In this document: piece after piece, positions 7,017-48,427 of the stretch | Position numbering within the stretch: position 1 is the first letter of the stretch | Layout: each line of letters begins with the position of its first letter | IMG/VR virus record: IMGVR_UViG_3300040801_001025 | Span: 20,499 to 84,498 of that record | Source of the DNA: a virus | Strand: one strand, 5' to 3' | Length of the DNA: 64,000 nucleotides | Notes under the pieces: model-generated | Told to the model about the DNA's origin: nothing | Seen by the model: the letters and a program-made list of their open reading frames with translations, nothing else | The model's database searches: none | Program-made: the position numbers and the translations under genes

Positions 7017-7973
7017 ATGGCTAGAGCAAGTTTGAAAGACCTTAAGGCGAAGTTGAAGAAAGAAAAAGAAGCTACTAAGAAAACCAGTGGTGGTGGCTTT
7101 TGGTATCCTCTCTGGGACTTGCCGCACGAAGGTAAAACCTCCATCCGTATCCTCGAAGACCCGAACGAAGATAACGATCTGTACTACTACTTGCAGTATC
7201 TTGAGCATAATATCGAGATTGACGGCAAGTGGGAACGCATCCCGTGTCCTAAGACGTGGGGCCAACATAACGAATGCCCAATCTGCGAATTGTCTGCTAA
7301 GATGTATGCAGCCAAGAAGCCAGAAATCGGCAAGTACTACTACCGCAATCTCTACACCATTGTCCGTGGTTTGATCACCAAAGACGGTCTAGTGTACGAA
7401 GATGAAAGCGATGATGCAACTGGTACGGTTCGTCCGTTCAAGTTCTCCTATCAGCTTTCTCAGAAGCTCAAGAATGATGCAGACCAATTCATTGAAGAAA
7501 GTGATGAAGACGATGCTCCGTTCTATGATCTAGATGCAGGTATTGATTTCGTTATCAAGAAGATCGTTACTTCTGATGGTAAGAAAGAGTTTCCGAAGTA
7601 CGACATTGGTAGTGGATTCGCATTGAAGCCGAAGAAGATTCCTGATGCATTGCAGAAGAAAATTGGTGAACTCGAACCACTCGCTGCATTGCTGCCGCCT
7701 CAGCCAACCTATGATGAAGTTCATGCAAAGCTTGAAGCTCATCAGAACGTTGTTGGTAGTGATGAAGATGATGACGATGACGTAGCCTCTGATGAAGACA
7801 TTGAGGCAATGATCAACCGTCAGCGTAATACTGTCGATGACGATGACGACGATAATGAAGTCGAGTCGTTGACTGAAGATGATGACGACGTTGATGTATC
7901 CGCACTGTTGGATGACGACGACGATGATGACGATGGTCTAGATGCACTAGCTAAGTTAGCAGCAGAAGACTGA
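7017..7973 (+). CDS. 32: Single-stranded DNA-binding protein, T4 gp32-like
   Basis: 318 aa. Coats ssDNA during replication, recombination and repair and recruits partner proteins by its acidic tail. N-terminal basic segment (LKAKLKKEKEATKK) matches the cooperativity domain; the zinc ligands C77, H84, C87 and C90 lie in the core; the last ~70 residues are dominated by aspartate runs, typical of gp32. Start ATG follows AGGAG. A strong terminator follows the stop. The aspartate codons (GAT/GAC) create long serine- or glutamate-free open frames on the other strand which are not genes. Confidence 0.95.
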   Translation: MARASLKDLKAKLKKEKEATKKTSGGGFWYPLWDLPHEGKTSIRILEDPNEDNDLYYYLQYLEHNIEIDGKWERIPCPKTWGQHNECPICELSAKMYAAKKPEIGKYYYRNLYTIVRGLITKDGLVYEDESDDATGTVRPFKFSYQLSQKLKNDADQFIEESDEDDAPFYDLDAGIDFVIKKIVTSDGKKEFPKYDIGSGFALKPKKIPDALQKKIGELEPLAALLPPQPTYDEVHAKLEAHQNVVGSDEDDDDDVASDEDIEAMINRQRNTVDDDDDDNEVESLTEDDDDVDVSALLDDDDDDDDGLDALAKLAAED

Positions 7974-7980
7974 TCACTTC

Positions 7981-8008
7981 GGGGGAGGGCAACCTCCCCC
8001 ATCTTTTC
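7981..8008 (+). terminator. Rho-independent terminator after gene 32
   Basis: GGGGGAGG, loop GCAA, CCTCCCCC, then ATCTTTTCTTT. It isolates gene 32 from uvsX, in keeping with separate high expression of gp32. Confidence 0.85.
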
Positions 8009-13718: not shown

Positions 13719-14063
13719 ATGTCAGAACAAGAACTACAGGCCATCGATGATCACATTCTATTTGAATTCGTAGAAGATGTGGGAGGCGGTGGCTTCTTGC
13801 AGAAAAGTGGAAGCGGTGTAGTCATCGCAGAAGGGCACGAGAAACAACTTGATACTTGTAGATGGATTAGAGCATTATCCATTGGCCCTGATGTAAATGA
13901 GGAATTCAAGGTAGGAGACGTTCTCCTAATTGAAAATCTTCAATGGACAACTATGTTCATGGTCAAAGATAAAGGTCAAAAGTATTGGCAGACTAAGGCT
14001 GAGCATGTTCTAGCTACTATTGACCCTGATAACCCACCGGAAGAAATCAAGAACTTCCTATGA
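13719..14063 (+). CDS. 31: GroES-like co-chaperonin, T4 gp31-type
   Basis: 114 aa. Caps GroEL so that the phage capsid protein can fold. The pattern fits GroES/gp31: an N-terminal strand (DHILFEFVED), a flexible mobile-loop region (VGGGGFLQKSGSGVVIAEGH), the ALSIGPDVNEEFKVGDVLLIE core that closely parallels the SVGPDVPEGF segment of T4 gp31, and a closing HVLATID strand. Length equals T4 gp31 (111 aa). A chance GroES-like fold is unlikely given the T4-like setting. Confidence 0.7.
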   Translation: MSEQELQAIDDHILFEFVEDVGGGGFLQKSGSGVVIAEGHEKQLDTCRWIRALSIGPDVNEEFKVGDVLLIENLQWTTMFMVKDKGQKYWQTKAEHVLATIDPDNPPEEIKNFL

Positions 14064-14071
14064 TCTGATAC

Positions 14072-14100
14072 TTGATATATGGGGAGTTCTGGAGTATAAT
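14072..14100 (+). promoter_or_regulatory. Strong sigma-70 promoter for gene 44
   Basis: TTGATA, exact 17-base spacer, TATAAT. Predicted start about 14107, giving a leader of about 16 bases that carries AAGGA. The -10 sits in GAGTATAATGCTC, also found at 53895-53907. Confidence 0.75.
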
Positions 14101-14124
14101 GCTCCTAAAAAGGACTCCCCATAT
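14077..14124 (+). repeat. 11-bp inverted repeat spanning the gene 44 promoter and start codon
   Basis: ATATGGGGAGT (14077-14087) and ACTCCCCATAT (14114-14124) are perfectly complementary; the second arm runs into the ATG at 14123. The first arm lies in the promoter spacer, so only read-through RNA can form the hairpin. A protein operator on DNA is an alternative reading. Confidence 0.75.
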
Positions 14125-15049
14125 GCTACAAAAATTATGGGTCGAGAAGTATCGGCCTACTTCCTTAGATGAATACATCTTTCAAAATAGCAGTCACGAT
14201 GAGGCATTTCGTCAGTACATCAAAGACGGTACAATTCCTAATTTATTACTAGCTGGCCATCCCGGCACAGGTAAAACGGCACTTGCAAATATACTCAAGC
14301 ATGAGTTAGATATTGCAGATGCTGATTTCAAAGTCATGAATGCGTCTGACGATAACTCAGTAGAAACAGTTCGTAGAGAAATCAAAGCATTTATTCGTAC
14401 ACTTCCATTAGGTGATTTTAAAGTCGTCTTCTTAGACGAGGCTGATTACCTTACGCCAAACGCTCAAGCTGCACTTCGCGGTATCATGGAAGAAAATAGC
14501 GATAGTGTTAGATTCATTCTAACATGTAATGCTCCGCAAAAACTGCACAAAGCTATCAAGTCTCGTTGTCAGGAATATGCATTTGAGAGTCTGGACAAGA
14601 AGACTATGATGCGTGCTGCTGCTAAAATTCTAGTGGCTGAAAAAATTAAAGCTAAAGGTACTAAAATTCTAGCAGAATATGTAGACTTGGCATATCCTGA
14701 TATGCGCAAACTGATACAGATGCTTGAGCAGGGCTCTCGTACTGGCGAACTTCTTCCTCCCGAAGAACCTACTGATTCTCTTATGACAATGGTCGAAATT
14801 GCCGATGTACTTGAGAATGATGGATGGTTAGAAGCAAGGAACAGACTGGCCGGTAAGCTCAATGAAGATGACTTTGTGCCAGCTTATCGATTCCTTTACG
14901 AACATCTGCATGAGCTTGGTAAATTCGAAGACCCTGACAAATGGGTAGAAGGCCAGCTTATTATCACAAACTATTTAAGAGACGACGCGATAATTGCTGA
15001 TCGTGAAATGAATTTTTCAGCATGCCTATTAAGATTGGAGAAAGTATAA
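14123..15049 (+). CDS. 44: Sliding-clamp loader large subunit, T4 gp44-like
   Basis: 308 aa AAA+ ATPase that opens and loads the gp45 clamp together with gp62. Walker A GHPGTGKT (45-52), Walker B VVFLDEAD (D105, E106), sensor 1 TCNAP and the SRC arginine-finger motif are all present. Start ATG 14123 is the one preceded by AAGGA and giving the family N-terminus WVEKYRP. gp62 follows one gene later; gp45 and polymerase are not in this window. Confidence 0.95.
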   Translation: MLQKLWVEKYRPTSLDEYIFQNSSHDEAFRQYIKDGTIPNLLLAGHPGTGKTALANILKHELDIADADFKVMNASDDNSVETVRREIKAFIRTLPLGDFKVVFLDEADYLTPNAQAALRGIMEENSDSVRFILTCNAPQKLHKAIKSRCQEYAFESLDKKTMMRAAAKILVAEKIKAKGTKILAEYVDLAYPDMRKLIQMLEQGSRTGELLPPEEPTDSLMTMVEIADVLENDGWLEARNRLAGKLNEDDFVPAYRFLYEHLHELGKFEDPDKWVEGQLIITNYLRDDAIIADREMNFSACLLRLEKV

Positions 15050-33251: not shown

Positions 33252-33280
33252 TTGACAACTCCTATAAATACACGTAAGAT
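33252..33280 (+). promoter_or_regulatory. Sigma-70 promoter with a late box nested in its spacer
   Basis: TTGACA (33252-33257), 17 bases, TAAGAT (33275-33280). TATAAATAC lies at 33263-33271 inside the spacer, so the NMN adenylyltransferase gene may be read both early and late. Confidence 0.6.
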
Positions 33281-33368
33281 ACACATAAAGCTGATGAGCG
33301 GAGTGCTCGACATACAGCTAGTGTTCGACTACAATCAGAACTATCCGAAGCACATAGGAGATATGGCA

Positions 33369-34457
33369 ATGGATCAAGCATACGATTTTATCGTCTACAT
33401 TGGGCGATTCCAACCGTTTCACGACGGTCACCTCGAAACTCTCAAACTTGCCGCAGAAACTGGTAAAGAAGTTATTGTTGTCATTGGCTCTGCTAATTCT
33501 GCACCGACTCCTAAGAATCCGTGGACGGCTATTCAGCGCCAAGAAATGATTGTTGAAGCAGCATTCGCTGCTGGTTTTGATGTTTCCAAACTCTCTTTCA
33601 TTCATGTTGAAGACCGTCGATACAAAGAATCCAAGTGGATTAGCTATGTACAAGGCACTGTTATGGACATTGTGCGTGCCAAGACTCGCAAACCTAATCC
33701 GTCTATTGCGTTAATCGGGCACGAGAAAGATTCATCTAGTTATTACCTTCGTCAGAATTTCCCTACGTGGAAATTTGTAGAGACAGGTCCGTATGTCAAA
33801 GAGAAAGGTGTTGGCAAAGTGGTTAGCTCTACAAAAATTCGTGAGCTTATGTTTGAGAACCACTTGGGTTATACCGAGAGTAATCTTCCGCCTGCTGTTT
33901 ACGAATGGCTGGACAAGTATACGCTGTCTGATGATTTTACTCGTCTGCAAGATGAATACCACTACATTCTTCAAGAAGAAAAGATTTATGAAGCTCTTCC
34001 GTATGGGATTACTTTTCAGACTGTAGATAGCGTTGTAGCACAGTCTGGTCATGTTCTTCTCGTCCAGCGTGGTAATCCATTGGGTTACGGGCTATGGGCG
34101 CTACCGGGTGTTCACCTTGCGCCGAATGAAACTTTGGAGCAGGCATCCATGCGTGCCGTGCTAACTGAAACAAATCTTGACGTGCCGCCAAAGGCTTTCA
34201 AAGGCTCTCTGGTGAGTAAAAAAGAATTTGATCACCCTAACCGCTCTTTGCGTGCAAGATTGACTACAGATCGAAATAGGACGCTTACGACGGCGTTCTA
34301 CTACAAACTTGACTCTTCTCATCCACTTCCGGTAAAGGGCCTTAAAGCTGGTGAGGGAATCTTGAAGGCATGGTGGTTCCCGTTCTCTGAAGTGTGGAGA
34401 ATGCGTGACCAACTCTTTGAGGACCATGCTGATATCCTTGACTACTTCATCGGATAA
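33369..34457 (+). CDS. nadM: Bifunctional NMN adenylyltransferase (NadM type) / Nudix hydrolase
   Basis: 362 aa from ATG 33369, chosen because TAGGAG sits 8 bases before it; ATG 33363 is too close. N-terminal half is the nucleotidyltransferase: YIGRFQPFHDGHL (HxGH-type site) and SSTKIREL. C-terminal half is Nudix-like, GLWALPGVHLAPNETLEQAS, with a degenerate Nudix box (RAVLTET replaces REUxEE), so hydrolase activity is uncertain. It joins ATP and NMN to make NAD+, using NMN from the NAMPT two genes on. Together they match the two enzymes of the phage NAD+ rebuilding route that counters NAD-depleting defences. Confidence 0.9.
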   Translation: MDQAYDFIVYIGRFQPFHDGHLETLKLAAETGKEVIVVIGSANSAPTPKNPWTAIQRQEMIVEAAFAAGFDVSKLSFIHVEDRRYKESKWISYVQGTVMDIVRAKTRKPNPSIALIGHEKDSSSYYLRQNFPTWKFVETGPYVKEKGVGKVVSSTKIRELMFENHLGYTESNLPPAVYEWLDKYTLSDDFTRLQDEYHYILQEEKIYEALPYGITFQTVDSVVAQSGHVLLVQRGNPLGYGLWALPGVHLAPNETLEQASMRAVLTETNLDVPPKAFKGSLVSKKEFDHPNRSLRARLTTDRNRTLTTAFYYKLDSSHPLPVKGLKAGEGILKAWWFPFSEVWRMRDQLFEDHADILDYFIG

Positions 34458-34474
34458 ATTTTAATGCAGATACT

Positions 34475-34483
34475 TATAAATAG
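34475..34483 (+). promoter_or_regulatory. T4-type late promoter, TATAAATAG
   Basis: Drives the HNH gene. ATAGCA (34480-34485) pairs with TGCTAT (34500-34505) at the start codon, with GAAGGAG in the loop. Confidence 0.75.
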
Positions 34484-34503
34484 CAGTAGAAGGAGCTATT
34501 GCT

Positions 34504-35241
34504 ATGAATTATCACAAAGTATACGGAAATATTGTACAAAAAGCAATTGACGAAGATCGAAAATGGCGTAAAGGAACTTACTATGAGCGCCATCACATAT
34601 TACCAAAGAGTTTGGGAGGAACTGATAAACAGACAAACATAGTTTTACTTACGGCACGAGAGCATTATATTTGCCATCTGTTGCTAGTAAAAATGTATGA
34701 AGCATATGAAGAATCTCATATAAAGATGCTTAGAGCGTTGAATATGATGAAGGTGAAACACGATAAACATGAACGTGATTTTAAATTTTCTTCTAAGCTT
34801 TATGAGAGTATGAAAGCTAGATTATACGGTGAAAATGGTTTATTGGTAGGTGAAAACAATCCTAACTACGGTGTCAAACAAAGTAAGGAAACACGAAAGA
34901 AAAAATCAGATGCTGCTAAGCGTCGATGCGCTGATCCAAAAGAACGAGAGCGTTTGAGGCAAATGGCACTGAACAGGACACCAGAACATGCAGAGAAAAT
35001 TAGACAAGGTAATTTAGGACTTAAACGATCAGATGAAACTAAAAAGAAATTAAGAAAATCTTTGAATGAGTGGTACTCCAAGGGGAACAAACCAGCAAAT
35101 TCAAAGAAAGTAATGGCAGATGGTGTGGTATATGATACGTTGCACGACGCGGGAAACGAATTAGACTTGACACCTTCTGGGGTGTTGTATAGAATACGTT
35201 CAAGTAGTAAGAAATTCAAAGATTATTATTACTTGGATTGA
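34504..35241 (+). CDS. Free-standing HNH homing endonuclease
   Basis: 245 aa. The HNH core is RHHILPKSLGG...NIVLLTAREHYICH (residues ~22-60). Two NUMOD3-type DNA-binding repeats (GENNPNYGVKQSKETRKK; GLKRSDETKKKLRKS) and a C-terminal helix-turn-helix module of IENR1 type (VYDTLHDAGNELDLTPSGVLYRI) follow. Such genes copy themselves into unoccupied sites. It lies between the two NAD genes, with its own late promoter, and is more AT-rich than they are. Confidence 0.9.
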   Translation: MNYHKVYGNIVQKAIDEDRKWRKGTYYERHHILPKSLGGTDKQTNIVLLTAREHYICHLLLVKMYEAYEESHIKMLRALNMMKVKHDKHERDFKFSSKLYESMKARLYGENGLLVGENNPNYGVKQSKETRKKKSDAAKRRCADPKERERLRQMALNRTPEHAEKIRQGNLGLKRSDETKKKLRKSLNEWYSKGNKPANSKKVMADGVVYDTLHDAGNELDLTPSGVLYRIRSSSKKFKDYYYLD

Positions 35242-35259
35242 GGGCGGAATCCCTATAAT
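35233..35259 (+). promoter_or_regulatory. Weak candidate sigma-70 promoter for nadV
   Basis: TTGGAT, 15-base spacer, TATAAT (35254-35259). The -10 is perfect but the spacing is short. Confidence 0.35.
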
Positions 35260-35286
35260 CTAAACTTGCACATAGGAGATATGGCA

Positions 35287-36738
35287 ATGAATAATGAAAT
35301 TAAAATTACTGATAATGTTATCTTGAACTGTGACACGTATAAAGTTTCACACTGGATGTTCATGGAAGAAGGCACGACCTTTTCTCAATCCTACGTCGAA
35401 CCCCGCGTGGGTGCCAAATACGACGAGATTGTATTCTTCGGTCTCCAAGGCATTCTCATGGATGAATTCATGAAGCCGGTCACCATGGAAATGGTTGATC
35501 AGGCAGAGGAATTCCTTGCCAAACACCTTGGTTCTACTGAAGCGTTTAACCGACGCGGCTGGGAAATCATTGTAAACGAATACGGTGGCTACCTCCCGAT
35601 TCGCATTCGTGCTGTGAAAGAAGGCACCGTGCTTCCGGTTGGTAATGCCGTCATCATCGTAGAATCTACGGACCCTCGTTTCAATACGGTGTGGTGCTCG
35701 TCCTACGTTGAAACGAAAATCATGCGTTCGTGGTATGGCTCGACCGTTGCAACGCACTCTCGCGAGATTACGAAGGCTATCCGTGAGGCTCTGAATCGCA
35801 CTGGCACCCCTGATCTTGCTAGCATGAAGCTGGTGGATTTTGGTAGCCGTGGTGTGAGCACGAAGCAGGAATCTATGGTCGGTGGCGCTGCTCACCTCGT
35901 GACTGGCACCAGCACCGATAACCTTCTTGGTATTGGATACGTCGAGGACGTTTACGGTTCCGAGAATGGTATGGCTGGTTTCTCTATTCCTGCAACGGAA
36001 CACAGCATCACGACTTCTTGGGGTGAACTTCGAGAGTTTGAATTCTTCAAGAACATTGTTACGAACATTCTGCCGAAAACCGGCATTGCATCTGTAGTTT
36101 GCGATACCTACAATCTCATGGCTGCAATCGAAATGTTCGGTGAACTTCGCGAAGACATTGAAAAAAATGGTGTCATTGTTATTCGCCCTGATTCTGGTGA
36201 TCCTGTTGAAATGACGGAAGCTGTGGTCCAGAAGCTTGACTCGCTTTTCGGCAGCACGGTCAATGATAAAGGCTTCAAGGTTTTGAACGATTGTGTACGT
36301 ATCATTCAGGGCGACGGTATTGATCTGGAAATGACCAAGGCTATTCTTGATAACTTTGAGCGTCTTGGCTACAGTGCAGATAATATCACCTTTGGTAGCG
36401 GTGGCGGCTTGCTTCGTAAGGTAACTCGTGATACTATGCGCTTCGCAATGAAAGCTTGCCATGTCATTGTCGACGGTGAAGCTCGTGACATTCGTAAAGT
36501 TCCATTGACTGATCCGAGTAAAGCGTCGAAAGCTGGTCGTTTGACGCTGGTGCAAGACACTGTGACTGGCAAGTACAGAACTGTCAATCAGCACGATACT
36601 ATTCGCGCTACCGAGGTTGACGCAATGGATACTGTCTTTGAGAATGGAAGACTACTCCGTATGCAAACTTTTGATGACATTCGTGAACGCGCTGCTATCA
36701 AGGACTGTCCCCGGCGACTTGATAATGTAGCAGCCTAA
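35287..36738 (+). CDS. nadV: Nicotinamide phosphoribosyltransferase (NAMPT)
   Basis: 483 aa from ATG 35287. Makes NMN from nicotinamide and PRPP. Family features include the TDNVILNCDTYKVSHW opening, LVDFGSRGVSTKQES, the GTSTDNLLG segment, SIPATEHSIT, VIRPDSGDPVE (phosphate and ribose binding) and the FGSGGGLLRKVTRDTMRFAMKA region. Full length for the family. Its 22-base leader is identical to that of the NMN adenylyltransferase gene. A long antisense open frame over it is a shadow. Stronger codon bias (more GC) than neighbours suggests high expression or separate origin. Confidence 0.95.
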   Translation: MNNEIKITDNVILNCDTYKVSHWMFMEEGTTFSQSYVEPRVGAKYDEIVFFGLQGILMDEFMKPVTMEMVDQAEEFLAKHLGSTEAFNRRGWEIIVNEYGGYLPIRIRAVKEGTVLPVGNAVIIVESTDPRFNTVWCSSYVETKIMRSWYGSTVATHSREITKAIREALNRTGTPDLASMKLVDFGSRGVSTKQESMVGGAAHLVTGTSTDNLLGIGYVEDVYGSENGMAGFSIPATEHSITTSWGELREFEFFKNIVTNILPKTGIASVVCDTYNLMAAIEMFGELREDIEKNGVIVIRPDSGDPVEMTEAVVQKLDSLFGSTVNDKGFKVLNDCVRIIQGDGIDLEMTKAILDNFERLGYSADNITFGSGGGLLRKVTRDTMRFAMKACHVIVDGEARDIRKVPLTDPSKASKAGRLTLVQDTVTGKYRTVNQHDTIRATEVDAMDTVFENGRLLRMQTFDDIRERAAIKDCPRRLDNVAA

Positions 36739-42057: not shown

Positions 42058-42558
42058 GTGAAATTAATTGAAGTTGCATTGCTTGAGAAAGAAACACAGA
42101 AACCGGGAACGTTTGTAGGAGCACGACCATCCAAAGAATCAATGAATATGATTCAGGATCAAATTAAAAAGCTTGATGTTCCTAACCCCATCGACAAAGG
42201 CAAGATGCACATCACTGTCATTTACTCTCGCAAACACTTACCAGATTTTAAAGCACGGGGTAAACTAGATAAACCTATTATCGCAAAACCGGATAAACTT
42301 CACATATTCCCTGCACGAGACAGTAAGAATGCTCTCGTTCTAAAAATCAAATGTCCAGAGCTAACAAAACGTCATGAAGAAATCATGGACGAACATGAAG
42401 CAACCTATGACTTTGACGAATACCGTCCGCATGTGACACTATCCTATGATGCGGGTGATTATGACCTATCCAAGTATAATGCTGATGACTTTAGTGATAT
42501 TGAAATCACTGAAGAGTATGATACTCCACTTAAAACTGATTGGCTAGTTAAAAAATGA
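42058..42558 (+). CDS. 2H phosphoesterase, candidate Acb1-like anti-CBASS enzyme
   Basis: 166 aa from a GTG start with AAAGGGA upstream. Two HxT motifs, H51-I-T53 in KMHITVIYS and H125-V-T127 in YRPHVTLSY, define the 2H fold. T4 Acb1 (gene 57B, 152 aa) has the same layout and cuts the cyclic nucleotides that activate CBASS. Spacing between motifs here (74) is close to that of Acb1 (69). Other 2H enzymes, such as RNA ligase-like or tRNA phosphodiesterases, share these motifs, so substrate is unproven. Overlaps the next gene by ATGA. Confidence 0.7.
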   Translation: MKLIEVALLEKETQKPGTFVGARPSKESMNMIQDQIKKLDVPNPIDKGKMHITVIYSRKHLPDFKARGKLDKPIIAKPDKLHIFPARDSKNALVLKIKCPELTKRHEEIMDEHEATYDFDEYRPHVTLSYDAGDYDLSKYNADDFSDIEITEEYDTPLKTDWLVKK

Positions 42559-46091: not shown

Positions 46092-46227
46092 TCAAGAGGG
46101 ATAATATTACGAGTGGTTACTGCGGAGCCGGTTTACGCTAGCGTTGAACCAGTAACCTGAGTGTGGGAAATTAGAGCAAAGAGTGACACACCTCAAGCGA
46201 ATGACTCTAATACTCGTACCCTTTTGA
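46092..46227 (+). ncRNA. Candidate structured RNA with pseudoknot, class not recognised
   Basis: Nested and contiguous helices read by eye: 46092-46100 with 46219-46227 (9 bp, one G-U); 46108-46114 with 46212-46218 (7 bp, stacked on the first); hairpin 46115-46122 with 46150-46157 (8 bp); hairpin 46158-46165 with 46187-46195 (8 bp, one bulge); and a pseudoknot 46170-46176 with 46205-46211 (7 bp), whose second strand abuts the outer stem. Helices meet without gaps, unlike chance pairing. It contains no convincing reading frame. The 3' end overlaps the tmRNA promoter, so it is probably a separate RNA; being a leader or part of the tmRNA precursor is possible. Confidence 0.55.
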
Positions 46228-46234
46228 TAAATAG
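46226..46234 (+). promoter_or_regulatory. Late-type promoter for the tmRNA acceptor piece, GATAAATAG
   Basis: ATAAATAGCAGTA here is the same 13 bases as at the HNH gene promoter (34476-34488). Predicted start is near 46239. Confidence 0.6.
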
Positions 46235-46301
46235 CAGTATATGGTTGTATGATCTTTTCTGGAGAAATTTCGACACGCGGGTTCGAATCCCGCCACCTCC
46301 A

Positions 46302-46437
46302 CTAAGCACTAGCGATAGCTAGATGCTACCTCCCAGTAACCATTGGGGGAGGGCTACCAGAATGCCAAAGAGTTACATGGGTGTTAGACGTGTCTCCTGT
46401 GTAAACGACATTCTGGATAGTCTGGACACGTCTCTAT
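46302..46437 (+). other. Intervening segment of the permuted tmRNA precursor
   Basis: Should be cut out in maturation. It folds densely: hairpin 46306-46326 (GCACTAGC/GCTAGATGC), hairpin 46329-46352 (CCTCCC/GGGAGG), and an H-type pseudoknot of 46357-46364 with 46409-46416 (8 bp) and 46386-46394 with 46425-46433 (9 bp). The pseudoknot ends four bases before the mature 5' end of the coding piece. Confidence 0.6.
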
Positions 46438-46519
46438 GGGGGTGACTTGGAATCGACCGGGATTAAGCAAGGACGAGTGACAACCCGATATGTAAATCGT
46501 TAAAACACTTAAACTAAAT

Positions 46520-46564
46520 GCAAATGATGCATTCTATGATGAGGAAATTGCGCTAGCAGCGTGA
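46520..46564 (+). CDS. tmRNA proteolysis-tag reading frame
   Basis: Codons from GCA at 46520 give ANDAFYDEEIALAA, then TGA at 46562. The AND start and ALAA end are the hallmarks of ssrA tags; ALAA-type ends are read by ClpX and ClpA. There is no ATG or ribosome site, as expected, because translation resumes on the tmRNA. The first alanine may come from the charged tRNA-like part, adding one residue. Confidence 0.88.
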   Translation, partial: ANDAFYDEEIALAA

Positions 46565-46602
46565 TCCCTCGGAGGGTGACGCCTTCTTACCAAATAGTCA
46601 GA

Positions 46603-46626
46603 CAAAGGCACCTTCGGGTGCCTTTG
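46603..46626 (+). terminator. Rho-independent terminator after the tmRNA
   Basis: CAAAGGCACC, TTCG tetraloop, GGTGCCTTTG, then TTATAATT. Confidence 0.9.
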
Positions 46627-46632
46627 TTATAA

Positions 46633-46663
46633 TTGACACTCTAGTTTGTCTATGCATAAATAC
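46633..46663 (+). promoter_or_regulatory. clpP promoter region: TTGACA plus late box CATAAATAC
   Basis: A perfect -35 TTGACA (46633-46638) lies 17 bases before ATAAAT, and the same bases form the late box 46655-46663. In the RNA, ATCAC/GTGAT (46668-46672, 46678-46682) and CATAAA/TTTATG (46655-46660, 46684-46689) can fold with AAGGA in the loop and the start codon in the stem. Confidence 0.6.
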
Positions 46664-46686
46664 AACTATCACAAGGAGTGATTTTT

Positions 46687-47364
46687 ATGCGAAACGATAG
46701 CGCAGTTGAAACACAAGAATTGCTGTTAGGTCAAAGTCTATTTGAAAAGCCTATCAAACACTATAAACAAATCATACCCGTAACAATTCATCATATCTAC
46801 ATCAATGGTGAAATTGAAGAAGAAGCAGATCGTTACATTGACATGCTAAATGAAATTAAGTTAGCAGAAGCACATGATCATGTCTTTATCTACTTAAATA
46901 CTCCCGGTGGAAGCCTTTCTACTACAATTCAAATCATGTCAGCCATTAAGCAATCTCAAGCCACGGTTACTACGGTAATTGAAGGCGATGTGGCATCTGC
47001 TGGAACATTTATCTTCCTATGTGGCGACGATTACATTGTACACGACAACTGTTCCTTCATGGTCCATAACTACAGTCATGGACCTTATGGTAAAGGGCAC
47101 GAGGTTGCACAAAGAGTTAAATTTACTGAGCAGCATTATCGCCAGTTGATCATCGATATTTATAAAGACTTTTTGACTGATGAAGAAATTGAAGATGTCC
47201 TCAAAGGCATGGATGTGTGGTTAAACTCTGAACAGGTTCGTGAACGTATTGAGACGAAAGTCGCTCGCGAAGAAGAAGCCATTCAAGAAGCCTTATCACA
47301 AGCTGCCGAAGCTGCTACACCAAAAAAGCCCAGAGGTCGAAAAAAGTCTAGCGACACAGAATAG
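46687..47364 (+). CDS. clpP: ClpP-like serine protease
   Basis: 225 aa from ATG 46687; the GTG at 46678 overlaps the ribosome site AAGGAG. Catalytic triad S104 (GDVASAGT), H127 (FMVHNYSHG) and D176 (MDVWLNSEQ) is intact, with the NTPGGS oxyanion-region motif. ClpP forms a barrel that needs an unfoldase such as host ClpX or ClpA, which also select ssrA-tagged proteins. The C-terminal ~30 residues are an Ala/Lys-rich tail (ATPKKPRGRKKSS) not typical of bacterial ClpP. It follows the phage tmRNA directly. Confidence 0.93.
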   Translation: MRNDSAVETQELLLGQSLFEKPIKHYKQIIPVTIHHIYINGEIEEEADRYIDMLNEIKLAEAHDHVFIYLNTPGGSLSTTIQIMSAIKQSQATVTTVIEGDVASAGTFIFLCGDDYIVHDNCSFMVHNYSHGPYGKGHEVAQRVKFTEQHYRQLIIDIYKDFLTDEEIEDVLKGMDVWLNSEQVRERIETKVAREEEAIQEALSQAAEAATPKKPRGRKKSSDTE

Positions 47365-47383
47365 AGTATGATATCATGGATGT

Positions 47384-48427
47384 ATGGAATACTCTAGCAT
47401 TGAAGAACTCGTAAGGTCCAATGTCGTCTTCTCAGGAAGCGTTTCAGCTAGTGGATGGGAACGCTTGTATTGTGAAGTATGCGGCGATGGAGCCCGTACA
47501 AAAGGCCCACGAGGGGCGTTTCTCTTTGAGGGGGACGCCTGCTTCTACAATTGCTTTAACTGTGGCATAGAAGGCAATTTTGACCCCAATCGTGAGGTTC
47601 CCTGTTCAAAGCACATGTGGGAAATTCTCACATCTTTTGGTATTCAACCCCGCGAATTCAATAAACTGGCCGAAGATGCTAAGAAAGCAAATGGTATTAA
47701 GGTTGTTAAGCGTCAGCCTTTAATACTTCCTAAGATCGACCCTATTCCTGATTACATGAAACTTCTTCGTGAGTTTCCAAAGGACAGTTTGATTGCTGAC
47801 GAAGCACGACGGTTTCTGTGGACAAAATACAAGATGACTGAAGACGATTACCCGTTCTATCTGTCTACGGGTAAATCTAAAGAAGATCACTATATTGCCA
47901 AAGCACTACGTCCTAGAATTATTATACCTGCAATGTATCATGGTGATATGCTGTACTGGCAAGCTAGAATATTTGTAGGCGAGAGCAAGTCTAAATACAT
48001 CAGTGCTAGTGTTAAGAATGCCACCAGTGTGGTATTCGGTATGGATAACTTAACACGCCATAGGCATCGTCCTTTGTACATTACAGAAGGGTTCTTTGAC
48101 TCTTGGCATGTTGGTGGTGTCGCTACAATGACCAATAGAATGAAAAAAGGTCGTATCGATACAATCAACCGCAGTGCTCGTGATAAAGTGATTTTACCTG
48201 ATCAAAACGATGATGGTATGAATCTGGCAGATCAAGGAATAGAACTTGGTTGGGGCGTATCTTTGCCGAAAATCTATCCAGAAACAGACATTTGTGGCGC
48301 TATCAATCGCTTCGGAAAACTTTATGTGATGAAATCTATCATCGATAATACTTATCATGGTGATAGAGCCAAAATATCATTAAAAATCTTCAAAAACGAA
48401 TATGGGCTGACATCCTCACATAAATAG
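47384..48427 (+). CDS. 61: DNA primase, T4 gp61-like
   Basis: 347 aa. Makes RNA primers with the gp41 helicase. N-terminal zinc finger YCEVCGDG...FYNCFNCG (C-x2-C...C-x2-C), then the RNA polymerase basic region, TOPRIM LYITEGFFDSWHVGGVATMT and the acidic VILPDQNDDG. Length matches T4 gp61 (342 aa). Confidence 0.93.
   Translation: MEYSSIEELVRSNVVFSGSVSASGWERLYCEVCGDGARTKGPRGAFLFEGDACFYNCFNCGIEGNFDPNREVPCSKHMWEILTSFGIQPREFNKLAEDAKKANGIKVVKRQPLILPKIDPIPDYMKLLREFPKDSLIADEARRFLWTKYKMTEDDYPFYLSTGKSKEDHYIAKALRPRIIIPAMYHGDMLYWQARIFVGESKSKYISASVKNATSVVFGMDNLTRHRHRPLYITEGFFDSWHVGGVATMTNRMKKGRIDTINRSARDKVILPDQNDDGMNLADQGIELGWGVSLPKIYPETDICGAINRFGKLYVMKSIIDNTYHGDRAKISLKIFKNEYGLTSSHK
48419..48427 (+). 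promoter_or_regulatory. T4-type late promoter, CATAAATAG
   Basis: Overlaps the primase stop; 42 bases before the next start. Confidence 0.65.

Follow-up and report, generated by a model that had tools for sequence, protein, structure and literature searches.

The tmRNA and clpP genes that adjoin each other on one strand of the virus record IMGVR_UViG_3300040801_001025 form a real pairing of two known parts, conserved among relatives. The window analyzed here is a stretch of 64,000 nucleotides, positions 20,499-84,498 of that record, which is itself a fragment of 84.5 kb. An earlier reading made from the letters of the window (the sequence-only reading) had placed the two genes side by side, and this was confirmed, the tmRNA being called at 46212-46655 immediately ahead of clpP (Table 1). 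The probability is put at roughly 0.55 that they constitute a conserved module of large T4-related phages resembling XacN1 and RAS14, in which a functional permuted tmRNA and ClpP belong to one pathway. A tmRNA beside clpP has apparently not been described before; no description was found in the open-access literature text, a scope outside which most subscription papers lie.

Table 1. Features of the tmRNA-clpP locus (window coordinates)
Feature	Position	Strand	Basis
T4-type late promoter motif of tmRNA, GATAAATA	46226..46233	+	ATAAATA over-representation, placement before starts
Acceptor/T-arm half of permuted tmRNA, ends CACCUCC-A	46243..46301	+	RF04321 alignment
Intervening segment, 136 nt, predicted to be excised if the tmRNA is two-piece	46302..46437	+	Position between halves
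Tag-coding half, starts GGGGGUG (G3-U70 wobble), 3' limit approximate	46438..46600	+	RF04321, beta_tmRNA, acceptor pairing
Tag reading frame, ANDAFYDEEIALAA + stop	46520..46564	+	ARAGORN
11-bp UUCG hairpin after tmRNA, probable transcript end	46602..46627	+	Sequence and fold
T4-type late promoter motif of clpP, CATAAATA	46655..46662	+	ATAAATA over-representation, placement before starts
clpP, 225 aa, triad S104-H127-D176	46687..47364	+	PF00574, phrog_1827, AlphaFold and PDB match
DNA primase-like gene; clpP neighbour, order clpP-primase in most relatives	47384..48427	+	phrog_47 DNA primase

ARAGORN classified the tmRNA as permuted, with the tag ANDAFYDEEIALAA followed by a stop codon. The Rfam model RF04321 (tmRNA_permuted) matched it with 98.5 bits (gathering threshold 47, E 6e-18) and the beta_tmRNA model with 90.9 bits. 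A scan with RF00023 gave only matches below the cut-off, largely tRNA-like, and at the DNA level cultured phages showed no more than a 33-base match to the tmRNA. The identification as a tmRNA made in the sequence-only reading was borne out; the circularly permuted, two-piece form had not been part of it. The acceptor/T-arm half comes first, followed by the intervening segment and then the tag-coding half, with 5/5 pairs formed in the T stem and 7/7 in the acceptor stem. The fold z of the region 46437-46640 was -3.9. In the other tmRNAs measured the intervening segment is 13-132 nt long, except for the 582 nt of contig L022.

The acceptor stem was compared among 12 phage tmRNAs, in 11 of which it is paired 7/7 and in one 6/7. 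Both sides change at pairs 4 (GC/CG/GU), 5 (GC/AU/UA/CG/GU) and 6 (UA/CG/AU), showing covariation. G3-U70 was present in all 12, the window included, although the versions of the acceptor search behind this count required that pair; in the unforced search it was found in 9/9, and it was read directly in L022, L024 and L231. G3-U70 is the pair read by alanyl-tRNA synthetase. After the discriminator, at 46302-46304, the window has CUA instead of the usual encoded CCA, and maturation of this end would call for a CCA-adding enzyme; the four tRNAs found elsewhere in the record have CCA encoded. With a covarying acceptor stem, G3-U70 and a tag that ends in LAA, the window tmRNA is very likely functional. 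In two contigs, L231/L411 and L410, the ClpPs are 99.6% identical, yet the tmRNA acceptor stems differ on both sides (GGGGGCG/CGCCTCC vs. GGGGCCG/CGGCTCC); either the pairs changed together or a cassette was exchanged recently.

The tmRNA of L022 (IMGVR_UViG_3300023049_000222, 7148-7985) was considered as a degenerate copy on account of its 44.5 bits, and this was rejected. Its halves lie 582 nt apart because an open reading frame for an HNH-type endonuclease (7243-7770 region; phrog_3118, phrog_1035) occupies the intervening segment. The stop codon of this frame falls inside the tag-coding half, and the acceptor pairing is intact (7/7, with G3-U70).

The window tmRNA shares the order of the halves, the acceptor pairing, G3-U70 and a tag with an AND start and an LAA end with the permuted two-piece tmRNAs of RF04321, RF01850 and RF01849. 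It differs from them, as does the tmRNA of its clade, in being phage-borne, beside clpP and usually behind a T4-type late motif; the endonuclease frame of L022 is a further difference. In 2021, two-piece forms made up 53 of the 133 unique tmRNA structures from phages; they are carried by the methylophage Melnitz and by pelagimyophages, which are likewise T4-like (PMC9004378); elsewhere, 79 phage tmRNA sequences have been recorded (PMC11915505). The tmRNA of Melnitz is unlike that of the window, since it lies upstream of a transcription coactivator gene under a glutamine riboswitch (PMC9004378). The authors of that study also suggest that host proteins are tagged so that their amino acids can be recycled; Clp is not mentioned. 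Huge phages with tmRNA and SmpB (PMC7162821) and jumbo phages with ClpP or ClpS (PMC7824862) are known, and an action on host proteins has been proposed for the jumbo-phage ClpP (PMC7824862). Their list of parts overlaps with that of the present locus, but in the passages covered from these two papers the parts appear separately and not as neighbours.

The tag of the window ends in the small hydrophobic degron LAA and retains the AND..Y/F core. Across the family the tags mostly start with AND or a close variant and mostly end with LAA or MAA, and a Y or F usually stands at or near the sixth codon. Features of this kind are what ClpX and SspB read in the tag of E. coli.

The protein encoded by clpP, read from an ATG (an alternative GTG lies at 46678), matched PF00574, peptidase family S14, with 62.5 bits (E 6e-17). 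Its best PHROG match was phrog_1827, ATP-dependent protease, with 193 bits. The catalytic triad that the sequence-only reading had called intact was confirmed and is invariant in 45/45 family members. The single-chain AlphaFold model (mean pLDDT 90) superimposed on the E. coli ClpP of a solved ClpX-ClpP complex with a Z of 18.2 and an rmsd of 1.9 A over 153 residues. The window ClpP is very likely an active peptidase. A scan of IMG/VR with the single window protein gave no match, so that alignments were needed to find relatives. The ClpP-like proteins found in a scan of bacterial genomes were all distant (24-35%) and thus pointed to no donor or host.

The face of ClpP that would meet an unfoldase is altered. 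In E. coli ClpP, the hydrophobic dock for the IGF/IGL loop of ClpX/ClpA, as seen in structures, involves L48, F82, M92 and L114; the comparison is one of aligned sequences, with the E. coli sequence and the list of pocket positions drawn from established knowledge. The window ClpP has N, Q, E and H at these positions. Among the 45 family members, the residue aligned with M92 is always E or D and the one aligned with L114 is N or H throughout, while H, N, Q or S (Y in three) occupies the L48 position; the pocket positions Y62, I90 and F112 are more often kept. In this alignment, the hydrophobic pocket expected of a ClpP served by ClpX or ClpA is absent at the four positions, and the polar and acidic residues make ordinary docking to the host ClpX doubtful. 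The delivery of tagged products to the phage ClpP by host ClpX or ClpA, as proposed in the sequence-only reading, is weakened by this polar or acidic dock in the 45 members, and it is here that the mechanism departs most from that reading. The tag itself keeps its LAA end and core. Phage ClpPs of PHROG 1827 and PF00574, among them those of ICP1 and AD45, have the fold, the triad and the annotation as ATP-dependent protease in common with the present clade. Unlike them, every member of the clade is acidic at the M92 position, and its clpP adjoins a primase gene and is paired with a tmRNA.

Partner proteins were sought in the record and in large relatives, among them XacN1 and RAS14, whose genomes are complete. 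Neither SmpB nor SspB was found in this set, so the host would have to supply SmpB and any unfoldases that are used. No C-terminal domain of the ClpX/ClpA type scored over the cut-off in the same set, upholding the earlier statement that the window holds no unfoldase gene; contig L404 gave a sub-threshold match to PF10431 (19 bits vs. a cut-off of 21.9). An AAA_2 match in G000 (18.4 bits, cut-off 27) was rejected as an unfoldase, as it overlaps the clamp-loader gene of the window at 14072-15049.

A search of gene neighbourhoods had been suggested along with the pairing. ClpP relatives were gathered from IMG/VR by protein alignment, blind to the tmRNA, and also by way of the neighbouring primase. 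The analysis covered the ClpP clade that contains Xanthomonas phage XacN1 and Stenotrophomonas phage RAS14, whose members with enough flank, 42 in number, were assessable. In 36 of them a permuted tmRNA was found in the same orientation as clpP and no more than about 1.1 kb away, upstream in 34 and downstream in 2. The distance, measured partly to stop-to-stop ends of open reading frames, was at most 0.55 kb in about 31 of the 36. The linked contigs reach 340, 350 and 379 kb. The clade is diverse, with a lowest core identity of 31% and only one pair at least 80% identical, and four changes between near and not near suffice on the ClpP tree. Retention of the pairing over such divergent relatives suggests that the tmRNA and ClpP probably work together.

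Wide separation of the two genes in relatives, a concern raised in the sequence-only reading, was not seen in these 36 members but did occur in XacN1 (clpP at 86.4 kb and tmRNA at 37.2 kb, 49 kb apart) and in L366 (86 kb apart, on opposite strands). RAS14 keeps clpP, and a permuted tmRNA was not found in it; three fragments among the 42 likewise had none. The XacN1 tmRNA grouped at 98 with other phage tmRNAs, in trees of tmRNA and ClpP that rest on short sequences and quick searches, and was thus probably acquired separately. As a control, phage tmRNA loci were collected with a T-arm DNA pattern; clpP lay within 1 kb of 0/76 of these, 34 of which were permuted. The ClpPs of phages outside the clade had no adjoining tmRNA, the distance being 3 kb in L063. 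In another phage outside the clade, L184 (5815-8152), a permuted tmRNA that is kin of the XacN1 tmRNA lies 1.3 kb upstream of a divergent ClpP.

The window contains the word ATAAATA 34 times, where 15.4 +- 4.5 occurrences are expected, and 18 of the 34 fall in the 80 nt that precede a gene start, compared with 12% for words of the same letters. In a T4-like cyanophage, NATAAATA is a late promoter, close to the TATAAATA of T4 (PMC2984593). A late motif precedes the tmRNA in 21/35 scored family contigs, near-duplicates included, mostly 39-50 nt from the T arm and against a background of 0.03 motifs per 100 nt. Similar motifs precede clpP in 17/35, counted in the same way. The promoter previously ascribed to clpP is best read as a T4-type late motif, and the tmRNA has one as well. 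With a motif before each gene, the two seemingly give separate late-type transcripts, and by analogy with T4 their expression would be late. No late sigma factor gene was identified among the proteins scanned. The terminator proposed after the tmRNA is a strong 11-bp UUCG hairpin, but its tail is poor in U and it was rejected by the terminator scan, which under strict settings found none in the window. In many relatives a hairpin with a U-rich tail stands at the matching place after the tmRNA.

The linkage of clpP to the primase is about as tight as its linkage to the tmRNA, so adjacency alone is no proof of a shared pathway and joint inheritance has to be considered. The tmRNA, clpP and primase would then be a co-inherited late or replication segment holding two independent takeover genes and no common pathway. 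This would fit the linkage of the primase to clpP in most members, the separation of tmRNA and clpP in XacN1, and the retention of ClpP, with no tmRNA nearby, in RAS14 and many other phages. It fits less well with L025 and L027, where the tmRNA, kin of the window tmRNA in a set of four grouped at 95, has moved to the other side of clpP, between clpP and the primase, and still adjoins it. Moreover, the tmRNA is still next to clpP in L355 and L357, where no primase was found within the 4 kb flank, and other phage tmRNAs do not lie beside clpP. The switch of sides and the retention apart from the primase point to more than joint inheritance, which as a full explanation is possible but doubtful.

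Two further explanations assign ClpP a role of another kind. That it is a head-maturation protease or a virion protein, unrelated to the tmRNA, is highly improbable: weaker PHROG matches do lead to head maturation proteases, and a single ClpP peptide has been reported from virions of the jumbo phage CBB, which is distantly related (PMC5259590), but the best PHROG match is the ATP-dependent protease family, XacN1 and RsoM2USA each have another protein annotated as prohead protease (PMC8504454), and clpP adjoins the primase and not capsid genes, in a record that is a fragment. Alternatively, the phage ClpP might enter or cap the rings of the host ClpP and alter or block proteolysis there, with the tmRNA meanwhile swamping the host in tagged products. 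The altered docking pocket on a conserved fold and triad would suit such a subunit, as would the lack of an own unfoldase over the cut-off; a pure poison would have no need of the triad kept in 45/45 members, and this explanation, too, is improbable. It is also unlikely, though less so, that the phages have a dedicated late tag-and-degrade pathway apart from host ClpXP, in which the polar-faced ClpP would be served by a non-canonical unfoldase or adaptor, either of the host or an unrecognised phage protein.

A pathway shared by the tmRNA and ClpP is plausible and could operate as follows. Each gene would be transcribed from its own late-type promoter, and the tmRNA transcript would be cut into two pieces by tRNA-processing enzymes of the host. 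The two-piece tmRNA would be charged with alanine by virtue of G3-U70 and then bound by host SmpB. While phage proteins are being made, it may free ribosomes stalled on messages that are broken or lack a stop codon, adding a tag whose degron end is readable by the host and would be recognized by host ClpX/SspB. The phage ClpP would assemble into an active ring peptidase and provide extra capacity for degradation of tagged or other products, docking most likely in a mode other than that of the IGF loop or acting as a peptidase downstream of host unfoldases. The earlier suggestion that tagged products serve amino-acid recycling after breakdown of host mRNA is weakened, since it concerns early infection and late-type motifs precede both genes.

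Phage tmRNAs and phage ClpPs have so far been known separately, their function mostly untried. Linkage over very divergent jumbo phages offers a hypothesis for both, namely late ribosome rescue coupled to protein turnover. The rebuilt face of ClpP toward host ClpX poses a testable question, and the role of the phage tmRNA is open to knock-outs and reporter tags.

Other genes of the window were also noted. An Acb1-like anti-CBASS protein (PF23474, E 3e-36) is encoded at 42058-42558, and homologues occur near the tmRNA-clpP segment in many relatives. In the region 33252-36738, a homing endonuclease gene separates the gene of a nucleotidyltransferase-Nudix protein (PF01467 and PF00293) from that of a NAMPT-like enzyme (PF18127, PF04095); the two enzymes are likely a pair for NAD salvage, a type that has been tied to counter-defence. 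Additionally, a small protein encoded at 13719-14063 is weakly similar to a head morphogenesis family and to the co-chaperonin GroES (phrog_931, phrog_3188).
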